Assembly: GCA_016871805.1 (NCBI GenBank)
Contig: VHCG01000010.1
Location: 1-64,000, forward strand
Direction: 5' to 3'
Length of the DNA stretch: 64,000 bases
DNA from: Verrucomicrobiota bacterium
Lineage (GTDB): Bacteria > Verrucomicrobiota > Verrucomicrobiia > Limisphaerales > UBA9464
Under the pieces are notes generated by a model. That model was not told the DNA's origin, made no database searches, and saw only the letters and a list, made by a program, of their open reading frames with translations. Shown here piece after piece: positions 14,801-54,185 of this stretch. Numbering within the stretch: the stretch's first letter is position 1; every line of letters begins with the position of its first letter. The position numbers and the translations under genes are program-made.

Positions 14801-15625
14801 ATGGAAACCCCCACATCCAGATCGATTCCGGCCGAGGATGCCTTGGATTCCGAATCCCCCTCGAGGACCTCCCCGCCGGCGATCGAGACCAAGGATCTGT
14901 GTCTTTCCTATGACGAGGCCCCGGCCCTGAGGGATGTGTCGCTGTCGGTTCCAGAACGCCAGGTCACGGCGCTCATCGGGCCTTCCGGCTGCGGCAAGTC
15001 CACCCTTCTGAGATGCTTCAATCGGATGAACGACCTCATCCCCGGGGTTCGTGTCACGGGCCAATGCAGGGTCGGGGGGCAGGACATTCTTGGCGACGGG
15101 GTCGACGTCATCGGGCTGCGCAAGCAGGTCGGCATGGTCTTCCAGCGGTCGAATCCGTTCCCGATGTCGATCCGGGCCAACATGGCCTATGGGTTGAAGC
15201 TGCAGGGACTCCGCAACCGGGTGGAGCAGGACCGGATCGTGGAGGAATCCCTCCGGGCGGCCGCCCTCTGGGATGAGGTGAAGGATCGGCTGGACCGCAA
15301 CGCCCTGGAGCTTTCCGGCGGGCAGCAGCAGCGGCTGTGCATCGCGCGCGCGATCGCCATCCGGCCACGGATCCTCCTCATGGACGAACCGGCCTCGGCC
15401 CTGGATCCAATCACCACGATGCGCATCGAGGAGCTGATCCTCGAGCTCCGACGGGACTACACCATCGTCATCGTGACCCACAACATGCAGCAGGCCGCCC
15501 GGATCTCGGATCGGACCGCGTTTCTCTATCTGGGAGAAGTGGTGGAATTCGACCGGACCTCGAGGATCTTCACCCATCCACGGGATCAGCGGACGGAGGA
15601 CTATGTGACGGGGCGCTTCGGGTGA
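14801..15625 (+). CDS. pstB: Phosphate ABC transporter ATPase
   Basis: 274 aa. Walker [13 protein letters not shown], the PstB-typical NRMNDLIPG, the Q-loop in [11 protein letters not shown], signature [14 protein letters not shown], Walker [15 protein letters not shown]-loop THNMQQA. It has about 30 extra N-terminal residues relative to E. coli PstB. It powers the PstCA channel. Confidence 0.97.
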
Positions 15626-15642
15626 GGGAGGAAGTCTGAGCC

Positions 15643-16308
15643 ATGAACCATTTCGACCAGGAAATCCAGGCGCTGAAGGACCGGCTACTTTCGATGGCAA
15701 GTCGAGCGGAGGCCTCCGTGCGGAATGCGATCCGGGCGCTTGTGGAGCGCGACGACGAGCTGGCCCGCGGGGTGAAGGGAAACGACGACCAGATCGACCA
15801 GATCGAGAAGGAGATCGACGAGCAGGCGATCCTGCTCCTTGCCAAGGCGCCCCTCGCCACCCAGCTCAGGCTCATCGTCAGCGCCACCAAGATCGCCCGG
15901 GACCTCGAGCGGGTGGGGGACGAGGCGACCACCATCGCACGGCGCTCGATCGAGCTCGGACGCGAGCCCCAGCTCAAGCCCTACGTCGACATCCCGCGGA
16001 TGTCCGACATGGCCCTGGCGATGCTCCGGGATGCCCTGGACGCCTTCGTGAGCCGGGACACGGCCAAGGCCCGTGGCGTCATTCCCCGGGACAAGGAGGT
16101 CGACGCCCTGAACCGCCAGCTCTACCGGGAGTTGGCGAGCTTCATGATCGAGTCACCGGCGACCACGACGCGGTGTCTGCATCTGATGACCATCAGCAAG
16201 GCCCTCGAACGGATCGCCGACCACGCCAAGAACATCGCCGAGGATGTCGTGTACCTCTACGAGGCCCGCGACATCCGACATGCGGAGCGGGAGGCGGACC
16301 CTGGATGA
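15643..16308 (+). CDS. phoU: Phosphate transport regulator PhoU
   Basis: 221 aa, all-helical, two repeated PhoU domains (about 10-95 and 115-205). Each carries the acidic metal-binding signature: ARDLERVGDEATTIA in the first and ALERIADHAKNIAEDVVYL in the second. PhoU links Pst transporter activity to the PhoR/PhoB sensor and restrains Pi uptake. It lies 17 nt after pstB. No phoB/phoR pair is in the window. Confidence 0.96.
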   Translation: MNHFDQEIQALKDRLLSMASRAEASVRNAIRALVERDDELARGVKGNDDQIDQIEKEIDEQAILLLAKAPLATQLRLIVSATKIARDLERVGDEATTIARRSIELGREPQLKPYVDIPRMSDMALAMLRDALDAFVSRDTAKARGVIPRDKEVDALNRQLYRELASFMIESPATTTRCLHLMTISKALERIADHAKNIAEDVVYLYEARDIRHAEREADPG

Positions 16309-16360
16309 GTGGGGCATCGGCCGCTTGCCCGACCGCATGAGCCTCGGCAGTGTCGTGACC

Positions 16361-17236
16361 ATGAAGGTGCTTGCCCTCGGCCTGGTCCTCCTCTGCCTGG
16401 CTGCCATCCCTGCCCGTGCTGGCTCGCTGGTGCAGGTCCGCACGGCGCTCGGGGACCTCGTGGTGGAGCTGTTCGACGAGGACAGGCCGGTGACGGTCCA
16501 GAACTTCCTCAGGTACGTCCGGGACGGGCGGTGGACCCATATGTTCTCCCACCGCATCGTGTCCGGCTTCATGGTCCAGGCCGGTGGCTTCGGGGTGACG
16601 AATCGGGGCACGACCAACATCGCCTTCGTCGACATCCCCGACTACGGGAAGATTACGAACGAGTTCAACGTCGGACCCCGCATCAGCAACACGATCGGGA
16701 CTCTCGCCATGGCGAAGGTCGGCGGCGACGTGAACTCCGCGTCGTCCGAATGGTTCATCAATCTCGCCGACAATTCCGAGAACCTCGACAACCAGAACGG
16801 CGGTTTCACCGTGTTTGGAAGGGTTCTGAACAGCACCAACGCCCTCTCGGTCTTCAACACCTTCACCTGGCTGGATACCCAGCCCACCAACCGGCTCTAC
16901 AACCTCGTCGGGACCGGGTTTCCGTTCAATTTCTGGCCCAATCCTCCCGCCTTCCCAACCCTTCGGAAGATCCTATCGTATCCGGAGGTGTTCGACAACC
17001 TGCTGTTCATCGAGGTGGTCGAGCTGCCGCTCCGGGTGCAGCCCCGCGTGGACGGGCGTCCGGGGCTGCAATGGACCTCGGTTCCGGGCATCGAGAACCG
17101 GGTCGAGGTCAGCGGTGGGGCCGGTTCCGGATGGACCCTGCAGGGCAGCGTGGTTCCGAACGGTCCGGTCTCGGCATTCGAGGACCCCTCCCCGGGTGAT
17201 GGGCCCCGGTTCTACCGGGTTCGTTTGGGACAGTGA
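16361..17236 (+). CDS. Secreted cyclophilin-type peptidyl-prolyl isomerase
   Basis: 291 aa from the ATG at 16361, which gives a good signal peptide (KVLALGLVLLCLAAIPARA); an ATG at 16337 is also possible. The cyclophilin domain (about 22-205) shows VTVQNFLRYV, FSHRIVSGFMVQAGGF, NTIGTLAMAKVGG and SSEWFINLADN. The C-terminal 80 residues form a separate beta-rich domain ending FYRVRLGQ, a tail type repeated in secreted proteins of this lineage. It catalyses proline isomerisation of exported proteins. It is 52 nt downstream of phoU but unlikely to belong functionally to phosphate uptake. Confidence 0.88.
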   Translation: MKVLALGLVLLCLAAIPARAGSLVQVRTALGDLVVELFDEDRPVTVQNFLRYVRDGRWTHMFSHRIVSGFMVQAGGFGVTNRGTTNIAFVDIPDYGKITNEFNVGPRISNTIGTLAMAKVGGDVNSASSEWFINLADNSENLDNQNGGFTVFGRVLNSTNALSVFNTFTWLDTQPTNRLYNLVGTGFPFNFWPNPPAFPTLRKILSYPEVFDNLLFIEVVELPLRVQPRVDGRPGLQWTSVPGIENRVEVSGGAGSGWTLQGSVVPNGPVSAFEDPSPGDGPRFYRVRLGQ

Positions 17237-17248
17237 CCCGGGTCGTGA

Positions 17249-17608
<360 letters not shown>

Positions 17609-17668
17609 TTAGAGAGGACATCCGCGGGGCTTCAAAATCAACATCCGGTTCAACACGGGTTCGCAGGG

Positions 17669-19483
17669 TCATGCGCGGAACTGAAGGGCATGCAGCCGGG
17701 CATAGGTGCCGTTGGCTGCCAGAAGCTCCTCATGCTGGCCCCGTTCCACGATCCGGCCCTGGTCCATCACCACGATGAGGTCCGCATGCTGGATGGTGGA
17801 CAGCCGGTGGGCGACGCACAGCGTCGTCCGGCCGCGCATCAGGGTCTCGAGGGCGATCTGGACCGCCCGCTCGCTCTCGGAGTCGAGGGCACTGGTCGCC
17901 TCGTCGAGGATCAGGATTGGCGCGTTCCTCAACAGGGCGCGCGCGATGGCGAGGCGTTGGCGCTGGCCGCCGCTCAGGCTGGCCCCGCGTTCCCCGATCA
18001 CAAAGTCGTAGCCCCCGGACTTCTCGAGGATGAACCCGTGCGCCTGCGCGGCGATCGCTGCGGCCTCGACCTCGGTATCGGTGGCCCCAGGTCGACCCAG
18101 CCGGATGTTCGCCCGGATCGTGTCGTTGAAGAGGATCGTCTCCTGGGTGACGACGGCGATCTGGTCGCGCAGATCCCGGGTTCTGACCTCGCGAAGGTCC
18201 ACGTCCCCGACCCGCACCGCGCCCTGCTGGGGATCGTAGAAGCGGAGCAGGAGGCTGGTCAGTGTCGTCTTGCCGCTTCCGCTGGCACCCACCAGGGCCA
18301 CGAGATGTCCGGGTTGGATCCGGAGTTGGACGTCCTGCAGGGCGTTCCGGTCGCCGAAGGAGAAGGTGACGCGGTCGAACTCCACCACCGCCCCGGCCGC
18401 CGCCACGGGGCGGGGGTTCGGTGGGTCGCTGATGTCCGGACGGGTGCCGAGCAGTTCGTCGACCCGTTCCACGGAGGCCCGGGCCTGCTGGGCCTGGCCG
18501 TAGAACCGGCTGAGGTTCTTGATCGGCTGGTAGAGCAGGAAGACGGAGCCGATGAACGAGAAGAAGTCGCCGGACGTCATCGTGGCGCCATCCCGGTTGT
18601 TCCGGAGCACGAAGAGGAAGACAAAGGCCACACCGAGCGCCCCGGCGAACTCCACCAGCACGGTCGGTATCTCGTTGCCCCGGACCGCCTTCATCACCTG
18701 GTGTACGATATGGGCCGAGGTGCTTGAGAAGCGTCGGCTGAATTCCGGTTCCAGGTTGTAGGCCTTGAGCACCCTCTGTCCGGTGAAGGCCTCCTGCATG
18801 GTGTCGGTGAGCTGTGCGCTGCCGAGCGACACCGCCTGGGCCGCCTTGCGGACCCTTCGGCCGAAGATCACCACCGGCAGCACGCAGACCGGGAACACGA
18901 CCAGCGAGATTAGGGTCAGCCGCGGCTGGAGCAGGATGAGATAGGCGAGCAGGAAGACGATCGTGATCGGCTCCTTGACCACGGTCGTGAGAGTGCCCTG
19001 AAGCAGGGTCAGGAGGGCTGTCGTATCGCCGCTGATCCTGGAGATCAGGTCGCCGGAGCGTGCCGCCGAGAAATACCCCACGGGCAGCCTCAGCACATGG
19101 TCGAAGATCTGTACACGGAGCTCATGGACCGCCTGCTGGCTGGCTCGGACGAGGTAATAGAAGTTTCCGAAGGAACCGATGAGGCGCAGTCCCATGGCCA
19201 TCGGGATCGTGGCGATGAGGGCGAGCCTCAGGACCATCGACTCGCTTCGGAGCCAGGCGTTGAGGAAGTCCTCTAGGTGCGGCCACAGCCGCTGGACCGT
19301 AGGTGAAAGCCGCGTCGTCGGACCTTCTGACCCGGCGACGAAGAGCAGGTCGCAGGTCAGCTTGAGGGCCATCATGAGCGCCGCATTGCCCGCGGCATAG
19401 AGCACCCCGGCCGAGACCCCGAGCACCAGCCGCGTCTTCTGCGGCCACATCAGACTGAGGAGTCTCCTGGCAAATGGGGTCAT
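17669..19483 (-). CDS. MsbA-like ABC exporter (fused permease and ATPase)
   Basis: 604 aa. An N-terminal six-helix ABC_membrane domain (about 15-310) is fused to an ATPase domain (about 345-595): Walker A GASGSGKTT, signature LSGGQRQRLAIARALL, Walker B ILILDEATSALDS, H-loop AHRLSTI. The ATG at 19483 overlaps the stop of the preceding glycosyltransferase (ATGA), so the two are translationally coupled. The family flips lipid A or other lipid-linked products. Pairing with a heptosyltransferase-like gene suggests lipopolysaccharide export, but the exact substrate is not visible. Confidence 0.9.
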   Translation of the reverse strand: MTPFARRLLSLMWPQKTRLVLGVSAGVLYAAGNAALMMALKLTCDLLFVAGSEGPTTRLSPTVQRLWPHLEDFLNAWLRSESMVLRLALIATIPMAMGLRLIGSFGNFYYLVRASQQAVHELRVQIFDHVLRLPVGYFSAARSGDLISRISGDTTALLTLLQGTLTTVVKEPITIVFLLAYLILLQPRLTLISLVVFPVCVLPVVIFGRRVRKAAQAVSLGSAQLTDTMQEAFTGQRVLKAYNLEPEFSRRFSSTSAHIVHQVMKAVRGNEIPTVLVEFAGALGVAFVFLFVLRNNRDGATMTSGDFFSFIGSVFLLYQPIKNLSRFYGQAQQARASVERVDELLGTRPDISDPPNPRPVAAAGAVVEFDRVTFSFGDRNALQDVQLRIQPGHLVALVGASGSGKTTLTSLLLRFYDPQQGAVRVGDVDLREVRTRDLRDQIAVVTQETILFNDTIRANIRLGRPGATDTEVEAAAIAAQAHGFILEKSGGYDFVIGERGASLSGGQRQRLAIARALLRNAPILILDEATSALDSESERAVQIALETLMRGRTTLCVAHRLSTIQHADLIVVMDQGRIVERGQHEELLAANGTYARLHALQFRA

Positions 19484-29803: not shown

Positions 29804-29887
29804 GCGGCCGCGAGGGAAGACCAGCCACGGACCTGTCGCAATTCGAAATTCCCCGGAGACCCCGCCGAACGAGGCCCCACCGGACGG

Positions 29888-29909
29888 GTGATGCAGTGTC
29901 CTGCATCAC
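29888..29909. promoter_or_regulatory. Inverted repeat between divergent genes
   Basis: GTGATGCAG and CTGCATCAC form a perfect 9-bp inverted repeat around TGTC. It lies 85 bp upstream of the lipoprotein gene (-) and about 150 bp upstream of the ABC ATPase (+), a typical operator position. The remainder of 29804-30055 shows no gene. Confidence 0.45.
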
Positions 29910-30055
29910 TGGGCGCGAAGTCACCGATGACACACGACACGTCAGACCGGAGAGGGGATTGGACTTCATTCCATCGATCGAGCCCTCTTGATCGGGATGA
30001 CGGCTTTGATTCGGCAGGGCTTGGTTCGCAGACCTGATCCGTCCAGAATCACCCA

Positions 30056-41436: not shown

Positions 41437-42509
41437 GACGCAGGCGGGTTGGAGGACATCAGCGAGCAGCCCCGGGGCTCGGCGACAGGAGAGCGTCCGA
41501 TCAGACGGATCCCGTCGTCCTCGCGCCGGGCAAGGTCCGCGGTCTGGATGATCATGGCCGACCAGAGGTTCGCCAAGTCGCAGATCTGGAGCAGCCCCAC
41601 CTCGCCTGGCGCCGCGGGGCGTCCCGTCTCAGGCGACACGATCCGGGTCCGGGTCCAGGGTGGAAATTGGATCAGCGCGTGATCCTCAGGCTCATCCGGG
41701 ATGGAATACCCCGGGGAGCTCATCTCGCTCATCCCATACTCGGTCAGGACGGATCGGGTCGGGATCCCGAACGTTCTCGCGAGTCCCCAGTGCAGTTCGC
41801 TCCGGGGTAGCACCCGGGAACGTCCCTTGTAGCCTCCCGTCTCGAGGATCAAGGACCCTTCAGGCAGAACCCATCGCCGCTCCGGTTGGGCATCCAGGAC
41901 ATGGACGAAGTTGAACGCGGTGCCGCACAGCAGGATCGGGCGATCCAAAGTGGTCAATGCGGTCGACAGTCCCTCGATGTCCACCTCCCAGCCCTCGGGC
42001 GAGATCTGTCCCCAGAACCGTCCGGGTCCGGGGCAGGGGTCCCTTGAAAGAGTGCCCATCATGTGGGCGAGGGAGGAATGGGGAGCGACCTCGGGTGGCG
42101 GGGTGAGGGACCACAGTTCCGGGAAACGCCGAGTCCCGCGGTGGAACACGATGCCCTGCCGCAGGGACATCTCATACAATCTCAACGAGACGGGACCGTG
42201 GATGTGCCGACTCGGCTTCTGCCCCGTGGTCCCACTGGAGTGGAACACCGTGGTCTGTTCCGATTCAGGGATACAGGTGATCTCGTTCTCCTTGAACGCC
42301 TCTGTGGGTAGGGCCGGGATACGATCCCAGGTGAGGTCTTCCGATGGAGTCACCGAATGCTGCAGGGCCCAGGTTCGGACCATCGGATTGTTGCGGAATT
42401 GGGCCTCGAAAATCCGTCGGCACCACGCATTGAAGACGTGCTCCGAGAGGAACGAGACGCCGCGCTCCGCCAGCGCCTCCTCGAGGTTCTGGCTCAGCGC
42501 GACAAGCAC
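41433..42509 (-). CDS. LuxE-like acyl-protein synthetase
   Basis: 358 aa, adenylate-forming enzyme. ATP motif SSGTTGQKP (91-99), TEYGMSEMSS later in the chain, and the C-terminal RGCS motif with Cys348 at the position of the acyl-accepting cysteine of LuxE. LuxE activates a fatty acid and passes it to LuxC. Its start at 42509 opens the unit luxE-luxC-queD-rsgA; 126 nt of apparently empty sequence precede it. Confidence 0.87.
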   Translation of the reverse strand: MLVALSQNLEEALAERGVSFLSEHVFNAWCRRIFEAQFRNNPMVRTWALQHSVTPSEDLTWDRIPALPTEAFKENEITCIPESEQTTVFHSSGTTGQKPSRHIHGPVSLRLYEMSLRQGIVFHRGTRRFPELWSLTPPPEVAPHSSLAHMMGTLSRDPCPGPGRFWGQISPEGWEVDIEGLSTALTTLDRPILLCGTAFNFVHVLDAQPERRWVLPEGSLILETGGYKGRSRVLPRSELHWGLARTFGIPTRSVLTEYGMSEMSSPGYSIPDEPEDHALIQFPPWTRTRIVSPETGRPAAPGEVGLLQICDLANLWSAMIIQTADLARREDDGIRLIGRSPVAEPRGCSLMSSNPPAS

Positions 42510-42635
42510 GTCGATGGACAGGGCGGTTTTGATGGCGGCAGTGCGGACTGGTTTTCCGCAACAGTCCGGTCGGGATGAAACCGGATCCCGCGGGGCAGGG
42601 CAAGCGGAGGGGCTGGGTCAGGTTCCTCCCGGCCC

Positions 42636-43178
42636 TCATCCCGTCGTCGAGCGCCGGGCAATCCGATACCAGCCCAGACTCAGGAGGCTCCACAGCAGCG
42701 CGACGGCCCACGGCACCCACCCGGCGACGTCGTTCGCAACGAGCGCAGGTCCGGTCAGCATGAGGGAGCAGTGGGCCAACGTCCAAAGCGAGAGGGCGGG
42801 GGCCACATCCATGACATAGCCCCAGGCACCGAGGATCATGCCGGCGGGCAGCAGCATCGCGCCCACCGTCCACGGCGGTGGAAACCCGCCCCAGGTGACC
42901 ACCCCGTAGAGACAGGCAATCGGCCAAAGAATTGAGTTTCTCAGGACCTCCCATCCCAGCATGGGGAGAAAGGGGATGGCCAGAAACACGGACAGGGTCA
43001 GCCAGACCAAGAGGAATCGTCCCAAAGCCGACGGAATGCCAAGGACGAGGGCCGCGACGGGATGGTGGTCCGGATTGTCCACTGCTCGAGATTCGGCCAC
43101 TGCCGAGACCCGAGGGCAAGAATCGACGGGTGGACTGGCAGATGCAGTGCTCTGCAGCCTTTGGCGAACGGCACCCAT
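42636..43178 (-). CDS. Hypothetical integral membrane protein
   Basis: 180 aa from ATG 43178. A polar N-terminus (about 1-40) is followed by four to five hydrophobic segments (about 42-70, 75-92, 98-118, 128-145 and 150-172) and a short basic end (RIARRSTTG). No known family recognised. It lies between the kelch gene (45 nt) and luxE (126 nt), all on the - strand, so cotranscription is possible. Confidence 0.65.
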   Translation of the reverse strand: MGAVRQRLQSTASASPPVDSCPRVSAVAESRAVDNPDHHPVAALVLGIPSALGRFLLVWLTLSVFLAIPFLPMLGWEVLRNSILWPIACLYGVVTWGGFPPPWTVGAMLLPAGMILGAWGYVMDVAPALSLWTLAHCSLMLTGPALVANDVAGWVPWAVALLWSLLSLGWYRIARRSTTG

Positions 43179-43223
43179 GTCACCTGGGGCCTTCCTCTCC
43201 ACCAAGGTGTCCCCAAACGCCTC

Positions 43224-44297
43224 TCATCGCAGTCTCATCCACCACACCTCCGGTGAGCGAACGCCCGGGCGCACCTCGCCACTCGGCAGCACCCATCCGC
43301 CCCGCCAAGCGACGCACGGCAGCGTCACACGAGGCGCAGGCAGGGTGCCCACGGTCGTCCATGAGGGATGCTTGAGATCGAGTCGAAGGATGTCGCCGGA
43401 GAATCCCGGGTGGTCTGCCGAAGCCGGCCTGCCTGCCCGGGAGCCGTCGTCGCCCCCCAGGAGGTAGACGGCAGTCCGATCCACCGGCGCGGGCGAGGCG
43501 CCAGCGACACACGGGTGCGGCAGATCCGGAAGGCGCTCCCAACCCCGTGCCGCGCTGTAGCGCCAGGCATCGCGCAGATAGCGTCGGACCGTCCTTCCAC
43601 CCCGGGATTCCAAGGCTGCGCCACCGACAAGGCAGAACCCGTCCGCCAGTCCGGCGATGACGGGGAGGATGCGCGGTTCTGCGGGCAGCAGCGGAAGTTC
43701 CCGCCAAACCGCGCCGCGTTTTCCGGGTGTCAGGGTGAAGACTCGTCCCGAGGCGACGCGTTCCCCGGGCTCCGGACTGCCGCACGCGACGTAGGCCACA
43801 CCGCGGTCGTCGAGGACCCCGGCGGCGTTGGCCAACGGAAGAGGCAGCTGAGGCGGAAGGTCCCGGGGGGCGAGGGTCTCAAGTCGATCCCGTCGCCATC
43901 GGAACCCCCCCACCTCCGCCGTCGGCCCCGAGGCATCACTGCCACCAAGGCACAAGACCCGGTCCTTCACGGAGATCGAGATGCCGTAGGCACGTGGTGC
44001 CGGCAGGGTGCCCGCCCTCCGCCAAACACCCTCGGGTTTGTCGAGAACCCAGACCGCGTCGTGCCAGACCTTGGTGCCGCCCTGCCAGGGGGGACGGTCC
44101 GGGAAGTTGGCCCCGCCCGCGACGATCAGCGCCCCTCCGGAGACTCCCGCAAAAGGAGCCGCAACCCCGACCGGGTCCGGAATCGGAGGGAGTGGCTTCC
44201 AGAGGGGCTCCGCCCAGAGGGTCAGGGTGGATAGCACGGCCACAACACCCCAGGAGAGGCTTGGGAACCGTCCCGGGTGGCGGTGGAAGGGCGGCAT
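43224..44297 (-). CDS. Secreted kelch-repeat protein (NanM-like)
   Basis: 357 aa from ATG 44297 (MPPFHRHPGR), giving a signal peptide (about 1-29, ending LTLWAE). Five or six kelch blades: LPPIPDPVGVAAPFAGVSGG, ALIVAGGANFPD, VLCLGGSDASG, FCLVGGAALES and VYLLGGDDGS. The start of the first blade and the VAGGANFPD pattern resemble N-acetylneuraminate epimerase (NanM) and related YjhT proteins. Sialic-acid genes are absent nearby, so the substrate stays open. Confidence 0.8.
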   Translation of the reverse strand: MPPFHRHPGRFPSLSWGVVAVLSTLTLWAEPLWKPLPPIPDPVGVAAPFAGVSGGALIVAGGANFPDRPPWQGGTKVWHDAVWVLDKPEGVWRRAGTLPAPRAYGISISVKDRVLCLGGSDASGPTAEVGGFRWRRDRLETLAPRDLPPQLPLPLANAAGVLDDRGVAYVACGSPEPGERVASGRVFTLTPGKRGAVWRELPLLPAEPRILPVIAGLADGFCLVGGAALESRGGRTVRRYLRDAWRYSAARGWERLPDLPHPCVAGASPAPVDRTAVYLLGGDDGSRAGRPASADHPGFSGDILRLDLKHPSWTTVGTLPAPRVTLPCVAWRGGWVLPSGEVRPGVRSPEVWWMRLR

Positions 44298-44322
44298 CGG
44301 GCTCCGTGGAGGGGCTTCGAGT

Positions 44323-46545
44323 TTACTGCCGTCGCACCCGCAGGAGCTGTCCCGAACCGGCATCGGGGATGCGGTAAGTAAACCGGGTCAGGGGAGGAGT
44401 GGATACGATGTCCTTCTGGACCGTGACGAAGGCCTGGCCGATGCCCTCGCTGGATTCCACCGTGTACGACTCCCCCGGTTGGCTCGGCCAGCTGAGGAGC
44501 ACCGAGGTTTGTGTCCCTGAACCTGGATCGAGCGTGATGGCATTGGTCCCGTCCAGGACGGTTACGGAGTTCGTGGTGGGCTTGTATACTTGGGCCTTGG
44601 CCACCAGGGCATGGGTGCCGTCCTCGAGTCGGAATCGAACCGCGGCAGGACCGTCGTGACATCCCCAGTATCCACTTCCAATCGTGATGGAGGCGTCTGG
44701 GATGGGCTCACCCGTGGAGGCATCGACAACGGCGACATCGAGGTTCGTCAGGCAGCACGGGACCGAGTTTGGGAACCAGGAGGAGCCGATCCGGGTCTGC
44801 CAATTCCCACGGGTGGATTGGGTCAGATCGTTGTCCACAGATCAGGAGGTCGAGTCGTCGAGCGGATCGACCGACAGGCTGTTGTAGTCACCCCAGCGGA
44901 AAAATCCCTGGGAGGCGGAGCTGGCCTGCAGGATGGCTTCTGATCGGTTGAGTCCTCCCAGCGGGGCGTCATCGGTTCGGCCAGCGTAGCGGATACCGGC
45001 GAAGGTGTTGGTGCTCGAGACGCTGTAGCCAATGGCGAGATTGCCCTGCCAGTCCAGCGCCGCGCTACCCCTCCATCGGCTGTCGGAATCCGTCGCGTGC
45101 GTGCTCTGGTCATGGAGGAACGGCGCTCCTCTGGGAAGGATCCGTCGAATCTCATAGTAGCGTACACCGACGATCCCGGATGGATCCACCTGCACCGAGT
45201 GGTTGACCACCAGCGCGTCGTGTCCCACGAAATGCCGGAACTGGAGGCGGTTCATCAGGCGATCGGTCAGGGGGTCGAGCCCATTGGTGGAGCCGCGCTG
45301 CGGAACGAGGCGATCACCCAGAACAATCCGGTAGGGAGCGACGGGGATCATCGGCAACTCGACAAGGGTCGAGGCCGACGTCTGGTTGAAATCCGGGTTC
45401 AGGGTGAAGAGTCGGAGGGCCTATGGAACGGGTTTTCCGTCCGAACCAATCTCCGTCGACCCGGTGCCACGCACCGGCGAGCGGGGTTTGCTGGGCGGAT
45501 TGGCGACGATCTCCGGGGAGATGAGGCAGGCGAAGACATGGGGCGTCCCTGCCGCCGGTGGGGCGCCATCGAGATCCGCCGGCAGCAGGCCATAGGGCAT
45601 GTTGTACAAGCCACCCAGATCCACATACACCGACGCCGCTCCTGGGTCGCCACGCAGCATCCCGATCCGGTCGAACGCGAAGACCCCCGCGCCCGACATC
45701 GTGGTTTCGGGAGGGGGACCAAACTGGTTCACCGAGACGTAGTAGCCGTCTGGCCAGACGCCCAGTTTGGGATAGTCGTTCATGAAGTTGTTGGGCATCG
45801 GGAAGTCATACAGAAAGAAGGGCCCGGTCGGGTCCGGCGTCTTTGAGACGGCCACGACCGTGCGGGCCGGGCCGAGGCCTTCCAGCCAGTCACCGACAAC
45901 GAACACGGTGACCACCCAGCGATCGGCCATGCGGTCGTAGCGCACGACCGGGTCGCCGTTGTCGTACTTCGATGCCGGTTCCCCGAGCCCGGCGAAGAGG
46001 GTGCTGTATTTCGCGGACGGCATGAGGGGCCTCCCGCTGCGATCGAAGACCCGGTAGAGGTTGTTGACGGCCTCGACGTAGTGATTCGGTCCGATGTCCC
46101 CGACGCAGTCGGAGGGGGACCACGACCGGCCATAGACGTTCCAGTTGTCCAGATCCGACAGCCCCTCGAAGGTGGCGATCGGCTCCCCCATCCGGCCCGT
46201 GAACCGATCGGATCGCAGCAACGGGTCCAACAGAGGGGCGGTGTCCTCGCCGTGGCGCCCGACCGTCTTGAGTCGGGGAGGGGTGGGTCCCTCGATGTCG
46301 TTGGGTGACGGAGGGCGGATCCAACGGGGACTGGCTGACCCAGCGGCCTCCTCGGCGAGTTTGCTCCAGGGTCGACTCTCCGCGAACCGTGCGGCCTCGA
46401 ACCGGATAGGGTGGGTGGTGGGAGCGTTTGGAGCCGCCTCGGAGGGAGCGACAGCCAGTTGGATCAGCAACAGTACCAGGAAAAGCCGAAAGGACGAACG
46501 GAGGCCCTTTGGCCTGGGGAATTGCATCCCCGAAAATCGCTTCAA
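44323..46545 (-). pseudogene. Secreted beta-propeller-like protein gene interrupted by two in-frame stops
   Basis: One continuous - strand frame from ATG 46545 to the stop at 44323 (741 codons), broken only by TAG at 45421-45423 and TGA at 44842-44844, with no frameshift. The three pieces (374, about 190 and about 170 residues) read as one protein: a signal peptide (ending PSEA), then SDCVGDIGPNHYVEAVNN, NDYPKLGVWPDGYYVSVNQF, ALVVNHSVQV, SRWRGSAALDWQGNLAIGYS and GNWQTRIGSSWF. That order of motifs is typical of a widespread secreted family. The TGA falls where homologues I recall usually have Trp (DDCTFW; here DDSTS then stop), consistent with TGG to TGA. A C-terminal beta domain ends LLRVRRQ. 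It is either a recent pseudogene, a readthrough case or sequence error. Confidence 0.8.
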
Positions 46546-46810
46546 GATCCGACTCCCTTCAACCGCAAAGCGGCCGTTTCTGAATGGTTAGGCGATGGAA
46601 ACCACCATTGGTGTCCGATGGTGCGAACACCTCAGCGCAGCATTCCACGGTTCGGATGATTCCTGGATCATTGTGGTTCGTGAGTCCCGTCTGGAACCTC
46701 CAGGGATCCGAAAATTTCCAAAAAACGTATTGCAGTGAAGGGTCTGTCCGATAGGCTTCCGAGCCCCGTTGCCGGTGTCCGGTACGGATCTGAAACCCGT
46801 TCGGCCTTAC
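46546..46810. promoter_or_regulatory. Divergent leader of the str operon (265 bp)
   Basis: This space must hold promoters for rpsL (+) and the secreted-protein gene (-). It contains the near-palindrome CACCATTGGTG (46603-46613) and the inverted repeat ATGAT/ATCAT (46656-46660 and 46667-46671), then an AT-rich stretch (46707-46735). I could not identify a convincing -35/-10 pair. Confidence 0.4.
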
Positions 46811-47203
46811 ATGCCCACGATCAACCAGCTGGTCCGCAAGGGCCGCAAGAAGATGGACTACAAGAGCAAGGCGCCTGCTCTCAATGGTTCCCCATTCCGC
46901 CGCGGCGTCTGCCTCCAGGTGATGACCCGTACGCCGAAGAAGCCGAACTCCGCCATGCGGAAGGTGGCGAAGGTCCGCCTGAGCCACGGCACCGAGGTGA
47001 TCGCGTACATCCCGGACGAGGGACACAACCTCCAGGAGCACTCGATCGTGCTCGTCCGTGGGGGTCGTGTGAAGGATCTTCCTGGTGTCCGGTACCATAT
47101 CGTCCGCGGCACCCTCGACTGCACCGGCGTTGAGAAGCGCCGCGTCAGCCGTTCCAAGTACGGCGTGAAGCGCCCGAAGGCTGCCAAGCCGGCCGCCAAG
47201 TAA
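46811..47203 (+). CDS. rpsL: 30S ribosomal protein S12
   Basis: 130 aa from ATG 46811 ([11 protein letters not shown]), the universal start. Decoding-site loops [11 protein letters not shown] and [13 protein letters not shown] match wild-type, streptomycin-sensitive sequences. It heads the str operon. Confidence 0.98.
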
Positions 47204-47235
47204 TCCTCTTCCGATAACCTACCACTGTTCTTTGT

Positions 47236-47709
47236 ATGGCTCGTCGTCGTCAGGCAAATAAGCGTCCCGCTTCGGTGGACGCCAAGTTCAACAGCACGTT
47301 GGTCAGTCGCCTCATCAACGTCTTGATGCGGGGTGGCAAGAAGGCCACGGCGCGTCGCATCGTCTATGATGCCCTCGATGCGTTGGCCGAGAAGAATCCG
47401 GGGGTGAACACCCTCGAGATCCTCCAGAGGTCCATCGACAACGCCAAGCCGAGGATCGAGACCAAGGCGCGACGTGTGGGTGGTGCCACCTATCAGGTTC
47501 CGATGGAGATTCCGGCCGATCGGCAGACGGCTCTCGCGATGCGCTGGATCACCTCGTTCGCCGACAAGCGGAAGGGGATCCCCATGAAGGAGGCTCTCGC
47601 TGCCGAGCTGATGGAGGCCTTCCAGGGGCAGGGCAATGCTATCCGCAAGCGGGATGATGTGCACAAGATGGCTCAGGCGAACAAGGCATTCGCCCACTTC
47701 CGCTGGTAA
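47236..47709 (+). CDS. rpsG: 30S ribosomal protein S7
   Basis: 157 aa, full length. MARRRQANKR start, NVLMRGGKKATARRIVYDA, and the C-terminal KRDDVHKMAQANKAFAHFRW are universal S7 features. It binds the 3' domain of 16S rRNA and often autoregulates the operon. A strong terminator-like hairpin follows. Confidence 0.98.
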   Translation: MARRRQANKRPASVDAKFNSTLVSRLINVLMRGGKKATARRIVYDALDALAEKNPGVNTLEILQRSIDNAKPRIETKARRVGGATYQVPMEIPADRQTALAMRWITSFADKRKGIPMKEALAAELMEAFQGQGNAIRKRDDVHKMAQANKAFAHFRW

Positions 47710-51757: not shown

Positions 51758-52035
51758 ACGCCTACGACGTGATCAAGACGGTCCGCGTGACCGAGAAGGG
51801 GACGATCCAGTCCTCCAAATTCAACCAGTACACTCTAGTCGCCGACCGCCGTGCCACCGCCCCGCAGATCAAGCGGGCCGTGGAGCAGCTCTTCAAGGTC
51901 TCGGTGGTCCGGGTCAACACCCTCAATGTCCGCGGCAAGTCCCGCCGTCAAATGACCAAGGCCGCCGGCAAGGACAGCGACTGGAAGAAGGCGATCGTCA
52001 CCCTCAAGCAGGGTGACAAGATCGAGCTGGTCTGA
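51754..52035 (+). CDS. rplW: 50S ribosomal protein L23
   Basis: 93 aa: NAYDVIKTVRVTEKGT, NQYTLVADRRATAPQIKRAVEQLF, then KGKSRR-like KSRRQMTK and WKKAIVTLKQGDKIELV. It is the last ribosomal gene here. The usual next gene rplB is absent, replaced by a hairpin and a radical SAM gene. Confidence 0.97.
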   Translation: MNAYDVIKTVRVTEKGTIQSSKFNQYTLVADRRATAPQIKRAVEQLFKVSVVRVNTLNVRGKSRRQMTKAAGKDSDWKKAIVTLKQGDKIELV

Positions 52036-52062
52036 GGTCTACCAGGCCCTCGATTTTCACCT

Positions 52063-52091
52063 ACGGCGCACGGTTCTCCGCGCGCCGTTTT
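52063..52091 (+). terminator. Terminator after rplW
   Basis: ACGGCGC (52063-52069) pairs with GCGCCGT (52082-52088) around a 12-nt loop that can pair further internally, followed by TTT. It marks the end of the ribosomal operon. Confidence 0.65.
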
Positions 52092-52129
52092 CATTTGGGA
52101 CTTGGGCTTCCGGACCCGTTTCGGGTGCA

Positions 52130-53080
52130 ATGACCAGAATGGATTCGCTCCCGATCGACCCTCAAGCCTGGGATCGTTGGATCCTGTCCCAGCGCCCCGA
52201 CCTCTCGGAATATCGTCGGTCCCTCGACCCCCATCAAGCCGCCCGGTGGATGGTCGAGGAGGAACTGCAGGCCGACGGACGCCTAGCCACCGGGGTCACC
52301 CTGTTCCTCACAAACCGCGAGTGTCCCTGGCGGTGTCTGATGTGTGATCTGTGGCGTGAGACTATCTCGCGGAAGATCCCCCCGGGAGCGGTCCTCGACC
52401 AGATCGATAGGGCGCTTCGGCAGACACCGCCTGCCGAGTGGATCAAGCTCTACAACGCGGGTTCGTTCTTCGATGCAGGGGCCATTCCCACGACGGACCT
52501 GCCCGGGATCGCCCGACGGGTCCAGCCGTTCCGGCGGCTCATTGTCGAATGCCATCCAACCCTTGTCGGGCCGCGCGTCGTGGAATTCCGAGCCCGGCTC
52601 GAGACGACCCACCTTGAGGTCGCTCTCGGGCTCGAGAGTTCGCATCCCGAGGTTCTGCAGCGTCTCAACAAGGGCATGACCGTGGATGACTTCCGTCATG
52701 CCGCCGGATTCCTGGTGGAAGCGGGGATCCAGGTACGGGCCTTCGTCCTAGTGAAACCACCGTTCCAGTCCGATCAGGAGGCCTTGGACTGGGCTCTGCG
52801 TACGACGGAGGTGGCCTTCGCCGCAGGCGCATCGGTCGTGTCATTGATTCCGACCCGTGCCGGCAACGGCGCCCTGGACACACTTCGGGCCCGTGGGCTC
52901 TTCGCGGAACCAAAATTGGATCTGCTTGAATCCGTCATGGAAAGGGCGTTGGCGAAGCCTCGGGGAAGAGTCTTTGCGGATGTCTGGGACCTGGAGCGGT
53001 TCCATCAGGGGCCCGATCTTCCCGCCCGCCAGGCCCGGTTGGAGCGGGCCAATCGGACGCAACACTGGTCCGGTCTCTGA
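52130..53080 (+). CDS. Radical SAM protein (Elp3/TIGR01210-like)
   Basis: 316 aa from ATG 52130. The iron-sulfur motif CPWRCLMC (CxxxCxxC) lies near residue 63-70, followed by LYNAGSFFDAGAIP (glycine-rich SAM site) and ALGLESSHPEVLQRLNKGMT, as in the Elp3/MiaB superfamily. The pattern RECPWRCLMCDLW is closest to the uncharacterised TIGR01210 type. The reaction and substrate are unknown. It directly follows the ribosomal operon, perhaps by chance. Confidence 0.8.
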   Translation: MTRMDSLPIDPQAWDRWILSQRPDLSEYRRSLDPHQAARWMVEEELQADGRLATGVTLFLTNRECPWRCLMCDLWRETISRKIPPGAVLDQIDRALRQTPPAEWIKLYNAGSFFDAGAIPTTDLPGIARRVQPFRRLIVECHPTLVGPRVVEFRARLETTHLEVALGLESSHPEVLQRLNKGMTVDDFRHAAGFLVEAGIQVRAFVLVKPPFQSDQEALDWALRTTEVAFAAGASVVSLIPTRAGNGALDTLRARGLFAEPKLDLLESVMERALAKPRGRVFADVWDLERFHQGPDLPARQARLERANRTQHWSGL

Positions 53081-53106
53081 ACCTACTCCGGAGTTCCGAG
53101 GTTCAG
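53077..53106. terminator. Symmetric hairpin holding both convergent stop codons
   Basis: CTGAACCT (53077-53084) pairs with AGGTTCAG (53099-53106), with CTCCGGAG inside the loop. The stem contains the stop of the radical SAM gene on one strand and of the aldolase-like gene on the other. Confidence 0.5.
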
Positions 53107-54185
53107 GCGACCGTCGCCCGGAGGTCGGCCGCAAAGGCCCGCACGTCCTCCTCGGTCGTATCCCACGAGCACATGAGGCGGCAGCCGCCCTCGCCGATGA
53201 AGTTGTAGAATAGCCATCCGCGGCCGTAGAGGGCTTGGATCGTCGTCTTGGGGAGGTCGACGAATACTGAGTTGGCTTCCTGGGGAAACAGGATCCTCAC
53301 CTGGGGCAGGTTATGGATGAGGCTGTGAAGGAGTCGCGCCATCCGATTGGCCTGCGACGCATGGCGGAGCCAGGCGCCGTTCTGCAGCATCCCGACCCAC
53401 GGTGCGGCGACAAAACGCATCTTGGAGCAAAGCTGTCCACCCTGTTTGGCCCGGAGGTCGAATTCCCGGGCGAGGTCCCGGTTGAAGAACACGACGGCCT
53501 CGCCGACATGGATGCCATTCTTGGTACCGCCGAGGCAAAGGACGTCGACCCCTGCCTGCCAGGTGATCTCCCGGGGTGCAACCCCCAGCGAGGCGACGGC
53601 ATTCGCGAACCGTGCGCCGTCCATGTGCAGGCGCAGTCCATGTTTTTTGGCCATCGCCCCGATGGCCCGGACCTCCGCGGGGCTGTAGAGGGTACCCACC
53701 TCGGTGGCCTGGGTGATGCTGACGACACGGGGTTTCGGGTAGTGGATGTCGTTCCGTCGCAGCACGGCTTCCTCGATACCCGAGGGGTTCAGCTTGCCGT
53801 TCTCTCCTAGCAGCAACAGTAGTTTCGACCCATTGGCGAAGAATTCCGGCGCACCGCACTCGTCCTTCTCGATGTGTGCGACATCATGGCATAGGATGCT
53901 GTGGTAGCTCTGGCAGCAGTGGGCGAGGGCGAGGGAATTCGCGGCGGTTCCGTTGAACACGAAGAATACGTCGCAGGGGGTCTCGAACAGGTCCCGGATC
54001 GCGTCTGCTGCCCGCTGGGTCCAGGGATCGTTTCCATAGGCAGGTGCGTGGCCGGAGTTGGCCTCCGCCAGAGCCATCCACGCCTCCGGGGCGATGCCGG
54101 CGTAGTTGTCCGAGGCAAACTGCCGACGGGACGCGGTGGATCCCTGGGCGGAGGGAAGCGTCCTGGACGATGGAGCCGAGCTCAT
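53103..54185 (-). CDS. Low-specificity threonine aldolase-like PLP enzyme
   Basis: 360 aa from ATG 54185. Beta-eliminating lyase family: FASDNYAGIAPEAWMAL, FVFNGTAANSLAL, HIEKDECGAPEFF, LHMDGARFANA, and the PLP lysine in CLGGTKNGIHVGEAVVFF. The family cleaves threonine or related beta-hydroxy amino acids to glycine and an aldehyde. Substrate specificity is not visible. It is monocistronic by spacing, 46 nt downstream of the response regulator. Confidence 0.9.
   Translation of the reverse strand: MSSAPSSRTLPSAQGSTASRRQFASDNYAGIAPEAWMALAEANSGHAPAYGNDPWTQRAADAIRDLFETPCDVFFVFNGTAANSLALAHCCQSYHSILCHDVAHIEKDECGAPEFFANGSKLLLLLGENGKLNPSGIEEAVLRRNDIHYPKPRVVSITQATEVGTLYSPAEVRAIGAMAKKHGLRLHMDGARFANAVASLGVAPREITWQAGVDVLCLGGTKNGIHVGEAVVFFNRDLAREFDLRAKQGGQLCSKMRFVAAPWVGMLQNGAWLRHASQANRMARLLHSLIHNLPQVRILFPQEANSVFVDLPKTTIQALYGRGWLFYNFIGEGGCRLMCSWDTTEEDVRAFAADLRATVA

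Follow-up and report, generated by a model that had tools for sequence, protein, structure and literature searches.

The window, a 64,000-nucleotide stretch of contig C10 in a 3.9-Mb draft genome of 124 contigs (G000), carries on its minus strand, from about 46545 to 44323, a single open frame with exactly two internal stops. A preliminary description made from the letters alone had reported this arrangement, with a TAG at 45421 and a TGA at 44842, and both were borne out. It had also read the three resulting segments as one secreted protein; all three indeed align to one orthologue of 1133 amino acids in a sister species of the same genus. The description placed the start at 46545. However, the alignment begins at ATG 46527, which is probably the true start rather than TTG 46545, because the equivalent TTG frame in the sister is itself closed by a TGA after two codons. 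The gene is present in a single copy in the draft genome.

The sister orthologue lies at 14961-18362 of SYEM01000188.1 (Verrucomicrobiales bacterium MAG F1-60-MAGs043; G001:C150) and is uninterrupted from ATG to stop over 1133 codons. The two genes occupy the same slot, between the divergent rpsL and, immediately downstream, a NanM-like kelch gene (Pfam PF24996). They are 82% identical over 663 residues and have the C-terminal tail in common, whereas the sister gene keeps a BACON-like, Calx-beta and jelly-roll-like region that is absent from the window copy. A scan of genome contigs returned the sister record and three distant homologues, and no further close species. Among 50 family genomes, a close orthologue was found only in the window genome and the sister. 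The features of the locus are collected in Table 1.

Table 1. Features of the interrupted frame and its lesions (window coordinates)
Feature	Position	Strand	Basis or remark
Probable pseudogene of a secreted multidomain protein	44323..46527	-	Syntenic 1133-aa orthologue in G001:C150, ~82% identical over residues 1-663; all-beta, propeller-like core, CarboxypepD_reg and C-terminal tail
Putative ancestral start	ATG 46527	-	Alignment to the G001 orthologue
Segment 1, 368 codons	45424..46527	-	Signal-peptide-like N-terminus and first half of core; relaxed constraint not seen
First internal stop, TAG	45421..45423	-	Tyr369 in the G001 orthologue; inside the conserved core domain
Segment 2, 192 codons	44845..45420	-	Second half of core; conserved residues lost on the window branch (G475S, G536S, F561S, others)
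Second internal stop, TGA	44842..44844	-	Trp562 in the G001 orthologue
Segment 3	44326..44841	-	Core end, truncated CarboxypepD_reg, deletion junction and 72-aa C-terminal tail; fastest-evolving part of the window branch
Deletion junction, ~1.2 kb (399 codons), in frame	44536..44545 (~44541)	-	blastn gap at G001:C150 15178-16380 and protein alignment

Pfam and NCBIfam scans found no family over the core (segments 1 and 2) and a weak CarboxypepD_reg match in segment 3, and the core has no significant sequence relative in the PDB. A structure model of the sister core, built from four sequences, is all-beta and of low confidence (pLDDT 61). Its best fold matches are sialidase-like beta-propellers, at a weak TM-score of 0.5 or less, and we treat this fold for the core only as a lead. 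We infer that the ancestral protein was a secreted multidomain surface or polysaccharide-related protein.

Several other features of the window were recorded. The slot beside rpsL (window 43200-46700) is variable among relatives, though it adjoins the conserved ribosomal operon; judging by their translations, the rpsL-divergent gene is MIP/aquaporin-like in one relative (G003) and a lamin-tail-like secreted protein in another (G011). On the far side of the kelch gene, the DNA between it and an acyl-CoA-reductase/LuxE-like pair differs between the two genomes (window 42500-43300 against G001:C150 12427-13851), and the sister stretch holds a dihydroorotate-dehydrogenase-like ORF, again named from its translation, that has no window counterpart. 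Two short repeats, at 140-245 and 29882-29918, each occur in at least 40 copies in the window genome and are widespread in the sister. On several contigs the former is an inverted pair about 350-450 bp apart with the latter between (for example G000:C1 206250-206647 and G000:C8 97970-98413), and the inner repeat motif carries a 9-bp hairpin. This suggests a MITE-like non-autonomous element with terminal inverted repeats of about 60 bp. Apparent stops elsewhere in the window were rejected: those at 9738-9162, 29447 and 40082-39917 lie in 5' extensions of the sister's ORFs, where substitutions do not follow a coding pattern, and those at 18725-19328 and 51837-53892 in antisense shadow frames.

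Lesions relative to the sister orthologue

The two stops fall at sites that differ in conservation. The column of Tyr369, replaced by the TAG, is variable in the wider family, whereas that of Trp562, replaced by the TGA, is tryptophan in the sister and in every one of the 14 distant homologues; a Trp is thus expected where the TGA stands, as first proposed. Orthologues might have ended at the same stop, a possibility that the preliminary description had allowed for, but the sister gene ends at neither. The TAG halves the conserved core, whose best-conserved motif, RWGDYS...DP...FW, is thereby lost; translation stopping there would give a 368-aa product without the RWGDY...TFW part of the core. 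Around the TGA the TFWY motif is further eroded in the window copy by F561S, Y563S, Y567D and F583S, at four columns that are all invariant in the three closest outgroups. No sigma-70-like promoter that would give the fragments a separate start was found.

A third lesion lies further downstream. Residues ~662-1060 of the sister protein, comprising the end of CarboxypepD_reg, the BACON-like domain, Calx-beta and the jelly-roll-like stretch, are absent from the window copy, which retains 735 of 1134 codons (64.8%) and has thus lost more than a third of its length. Two family genomes, G011 and G017, contain relatives of the jelly-roll-like stretch. Because the junction cuts the CarboxypepD_reg domain, the window lineage more likely lost the missing residues than the sister gained them by insertion. 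Furthermore, a distant Nitrospirae homologue has CarboxypepD_reg followed by a jelly-roll-like domain (a weak BLAST match, E 4e-4), so that the absence is probably derived. No repeat or mobile element was found at the junction.

The window copy aligned to the sister orthologue contains neither a frameshift nor a small indel. The preliminary description was therefore right that the frame is unshifted, but not that there was no other decay, given the 1.2-kb in-frame deletion and the outgroup-polarised loss of conserved residues. Nor do the two stops stand with nothing else: about 399 codons are missing near 44541, the motif surrounding the TGA has lost conserved residues, and the window branch evolves faster after the TAG.

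Constraint along the gene and on the two branches

In every segment, differences from the sister gene show a strong bias to third codon positions, with 96 third-position against 21 second-position changes in segment 1, 69 against 13 in segment 2 and 44 against 15 in segment 3. Pairwise dN/dS is low throughout (0.18, 0.15, 0.23 and 0.19, the first value being that of segment 1). This low ratio together with the third-position bias indicates that most of the divergence arose in a working gene, and that, measured against the split of the two species, the gene was inactivated recently.

Pairwise dS itself climbs along the gene away from rpsL, from 0.42 through 0.66 to 0.90. Over the wider interval 43224-47700, dS against the sister rises from about 0.29 at the 5' end of the probable pseudogene, on the rpsL side, to about 0.79 in the kelch gene; this could stem from codon-level constraint or from recombination near the conserved ribosomal genes. 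Because dS increases in this way, any asymmetry between the two lineages is hidden in the pairwise ratios, a problem that is removed by polarising the changes with three outgroups, themselves distant (35-39% identical).

Polarised in this manner, the two branches are equal upstream of the TAG (residues 101-368; 0.072 in the window and 0.057 in the sister). Downstream of it the window branch has roughly four times the length of the sister branch (0.251 against 0.058), and 99% of 100 bootstraps give a positive difference. For segment 3 by itself the values are 0.475 against 0.036 (98% of bootstraps), and for segment 2 by itself 0.152 against 0.065, which is not significant (86%). The adjacent kelch gene is without branch asymmetry (0.158 against 0.144). 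Individual residues tell of the same imbalance. At columns identical in the three outgroups, with the stop sites excluded, the window copy deviates 14 times and the sister once (binomial p 0.001); downstream of the TAG the counts are 12 and 1 (p 0.003). Among 39 columns shared by 12 or more of 14 homologues, the changes found in the window alone affect G475, G536, F561 and W562, each of which lies beyond the TAG. The broken lineage thus shows relaxed constraint downstream of the TAG but not upstream of it.

The stops had been proposed to be fresh nonsense mutations. They are recent in that frameshifts have not yet accumulated, but the downstream part of the gene is already under relaxed constraint.

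Probable gene loss and its alternatives

Against the intact orthologue, three inactivating lesions (the TAG, the TGA and the 399-codon deletion) and an asymmetric loss of conserved residues after the TAG are directly observed, and we consider the locus very probably a pseudogene at an early to middle stage of decay. Some points weigh against this reading: the lack of frameshifts and small indels and a dN/dS of 0.15-0.23 in every segment, by which decay cannot be old, the unrelaxed segment 1, the distance of the outgroups and the non-significant asymmetry of segment 2 taken singly. Of the three explanations first put forward for the stops, nonsense mutation in a pseudogene is well supported, while readthrough and sequencing error are unlikely on the following grounds.

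Programmed or tolerated readthrough, or recoding of the selenocysteine or pyrrolysine type, would yield a full-length protein and would suit the unbroken frame over both stops and the third-position bias throughout; peptides are also known from many bacterial pseudogenes, according to PMC13345370, which cites a Salmonella survey. Yet two different stop codons would need decoding, and neither is conserved among orthologues, the sister having sense codons at both sites and the 14 distant homologues no stop there. Neither a suppressor tRNA (anticodons CTA, TCA or TTA) nor a tRNA-Sec was found among the tRNAs recovered, an absence that is not absolute in a genome about 91% complete. One match to RF01852 (tRNA-Sec) over the cut-off was rejected, being tRNA-Ser(TGA). 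TGA terminates 25 of the 29 conserved window genes checked, which upholds the earlier exclusion of genome-wide UGA reassignment and also weighs against readthrough. Relaxed constraint after the TAG on the window branch is, moreover, unexpected for a translated full-length product, and we regard readthrough as extremely improbable. Sequencing or assembly error, by which the stops and perhaps the gap would be artefacts of metagenome assembly, draws some plausibility from the source being a draft genome in 124 contigs. However, no other true gene is interrupted among those of the 64-kb window that are comparable with the sister, and error would leave unexplained the missense losses around the stops, the cleanly in-frame 399-codon deletion and the branch-length asymmetry; it is very unlikely.

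A gene shortened rather than lost is a somewhat better contender, though still an improbable one. The 368-aa N-terminal product would then still be made, secreted and selected, while the DNA beyond the TAG decays, as in 3'-to-5' remodelling by nonsense mutation. The equal branches over residues 101-368 fit this, as does the fact that no near-invariant residue was lost in the window alone upstream of the TAG, the four such losses all lying downstream. On the other hand, the TAG splits the conserved core and takes away its best-conserved motif, and the pattern would be no different if the whole gene were dead and the TAG recent. The contrast in window deviations at outgroup-identical columns, 2 of 32 before and 12 of 70 after the TAG, is not significant (Fisher p 0.22), and we therefore make no claim of continued selection on the N-terminal part.

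For the pseudogene reading, the following course is proposed. The common ancestor of the two species would have carried, next to rpsL, an intact gene of about 1133 codons encoding a secreted multidomain protein. This gene as a whole was presumably no longer needed in the window lineage, where it would then have gained at least three inactivating lesions, namely the in-frame deletion of about 399 codons near the 3' end, the TGA at the invariant Trp and the TAG at codon 369. Since constraint is most relaxed towards the 3' end and not relaxed before the TAG, the 3' lesions probably preceded the TAG, which would be the latest of the three. Any product still made would be a truncated and probably non-functional N-terminal half. 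We conclude that this is a fairly young pseudogene of what was a patchily distributed accessory secreted-protein gene; with such a distribution, its loss is unsurprising.

The case is an ordinary instance of gene loss and nothing categorically new. Like other bacterial pseudogenes, it has in-frame stops that split an ancestral ORF into adjacent fragments matching one homologue, with relaxation downstream, and it would be a fragmented gene by the definition of Pseudofinder (PMC9336565). PMC13345370 distinguishes near-complete pseudogenes, with in-frame stops or indels, from truncated ones of less than 65% of the ancestral length; with 64.8% of its length and in-frame stops, the window copy stands on the border of the two classes. 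It differs in no way in kind, being set apart by its origin in an uncultured verrucomicrobial lineage and by an order of decay, 3' to 5', that is partly readable. In annotation, its pieces are not to be called separate genes. With a tryptophan expected at the TGA, the locus could be mistaken for readthrough or recoding, but a single sister genome reveals ordinary gene loss in progress; the locus is also a minor illustration of constraint being relaxed first in the part of a gene beyond a premature stop.
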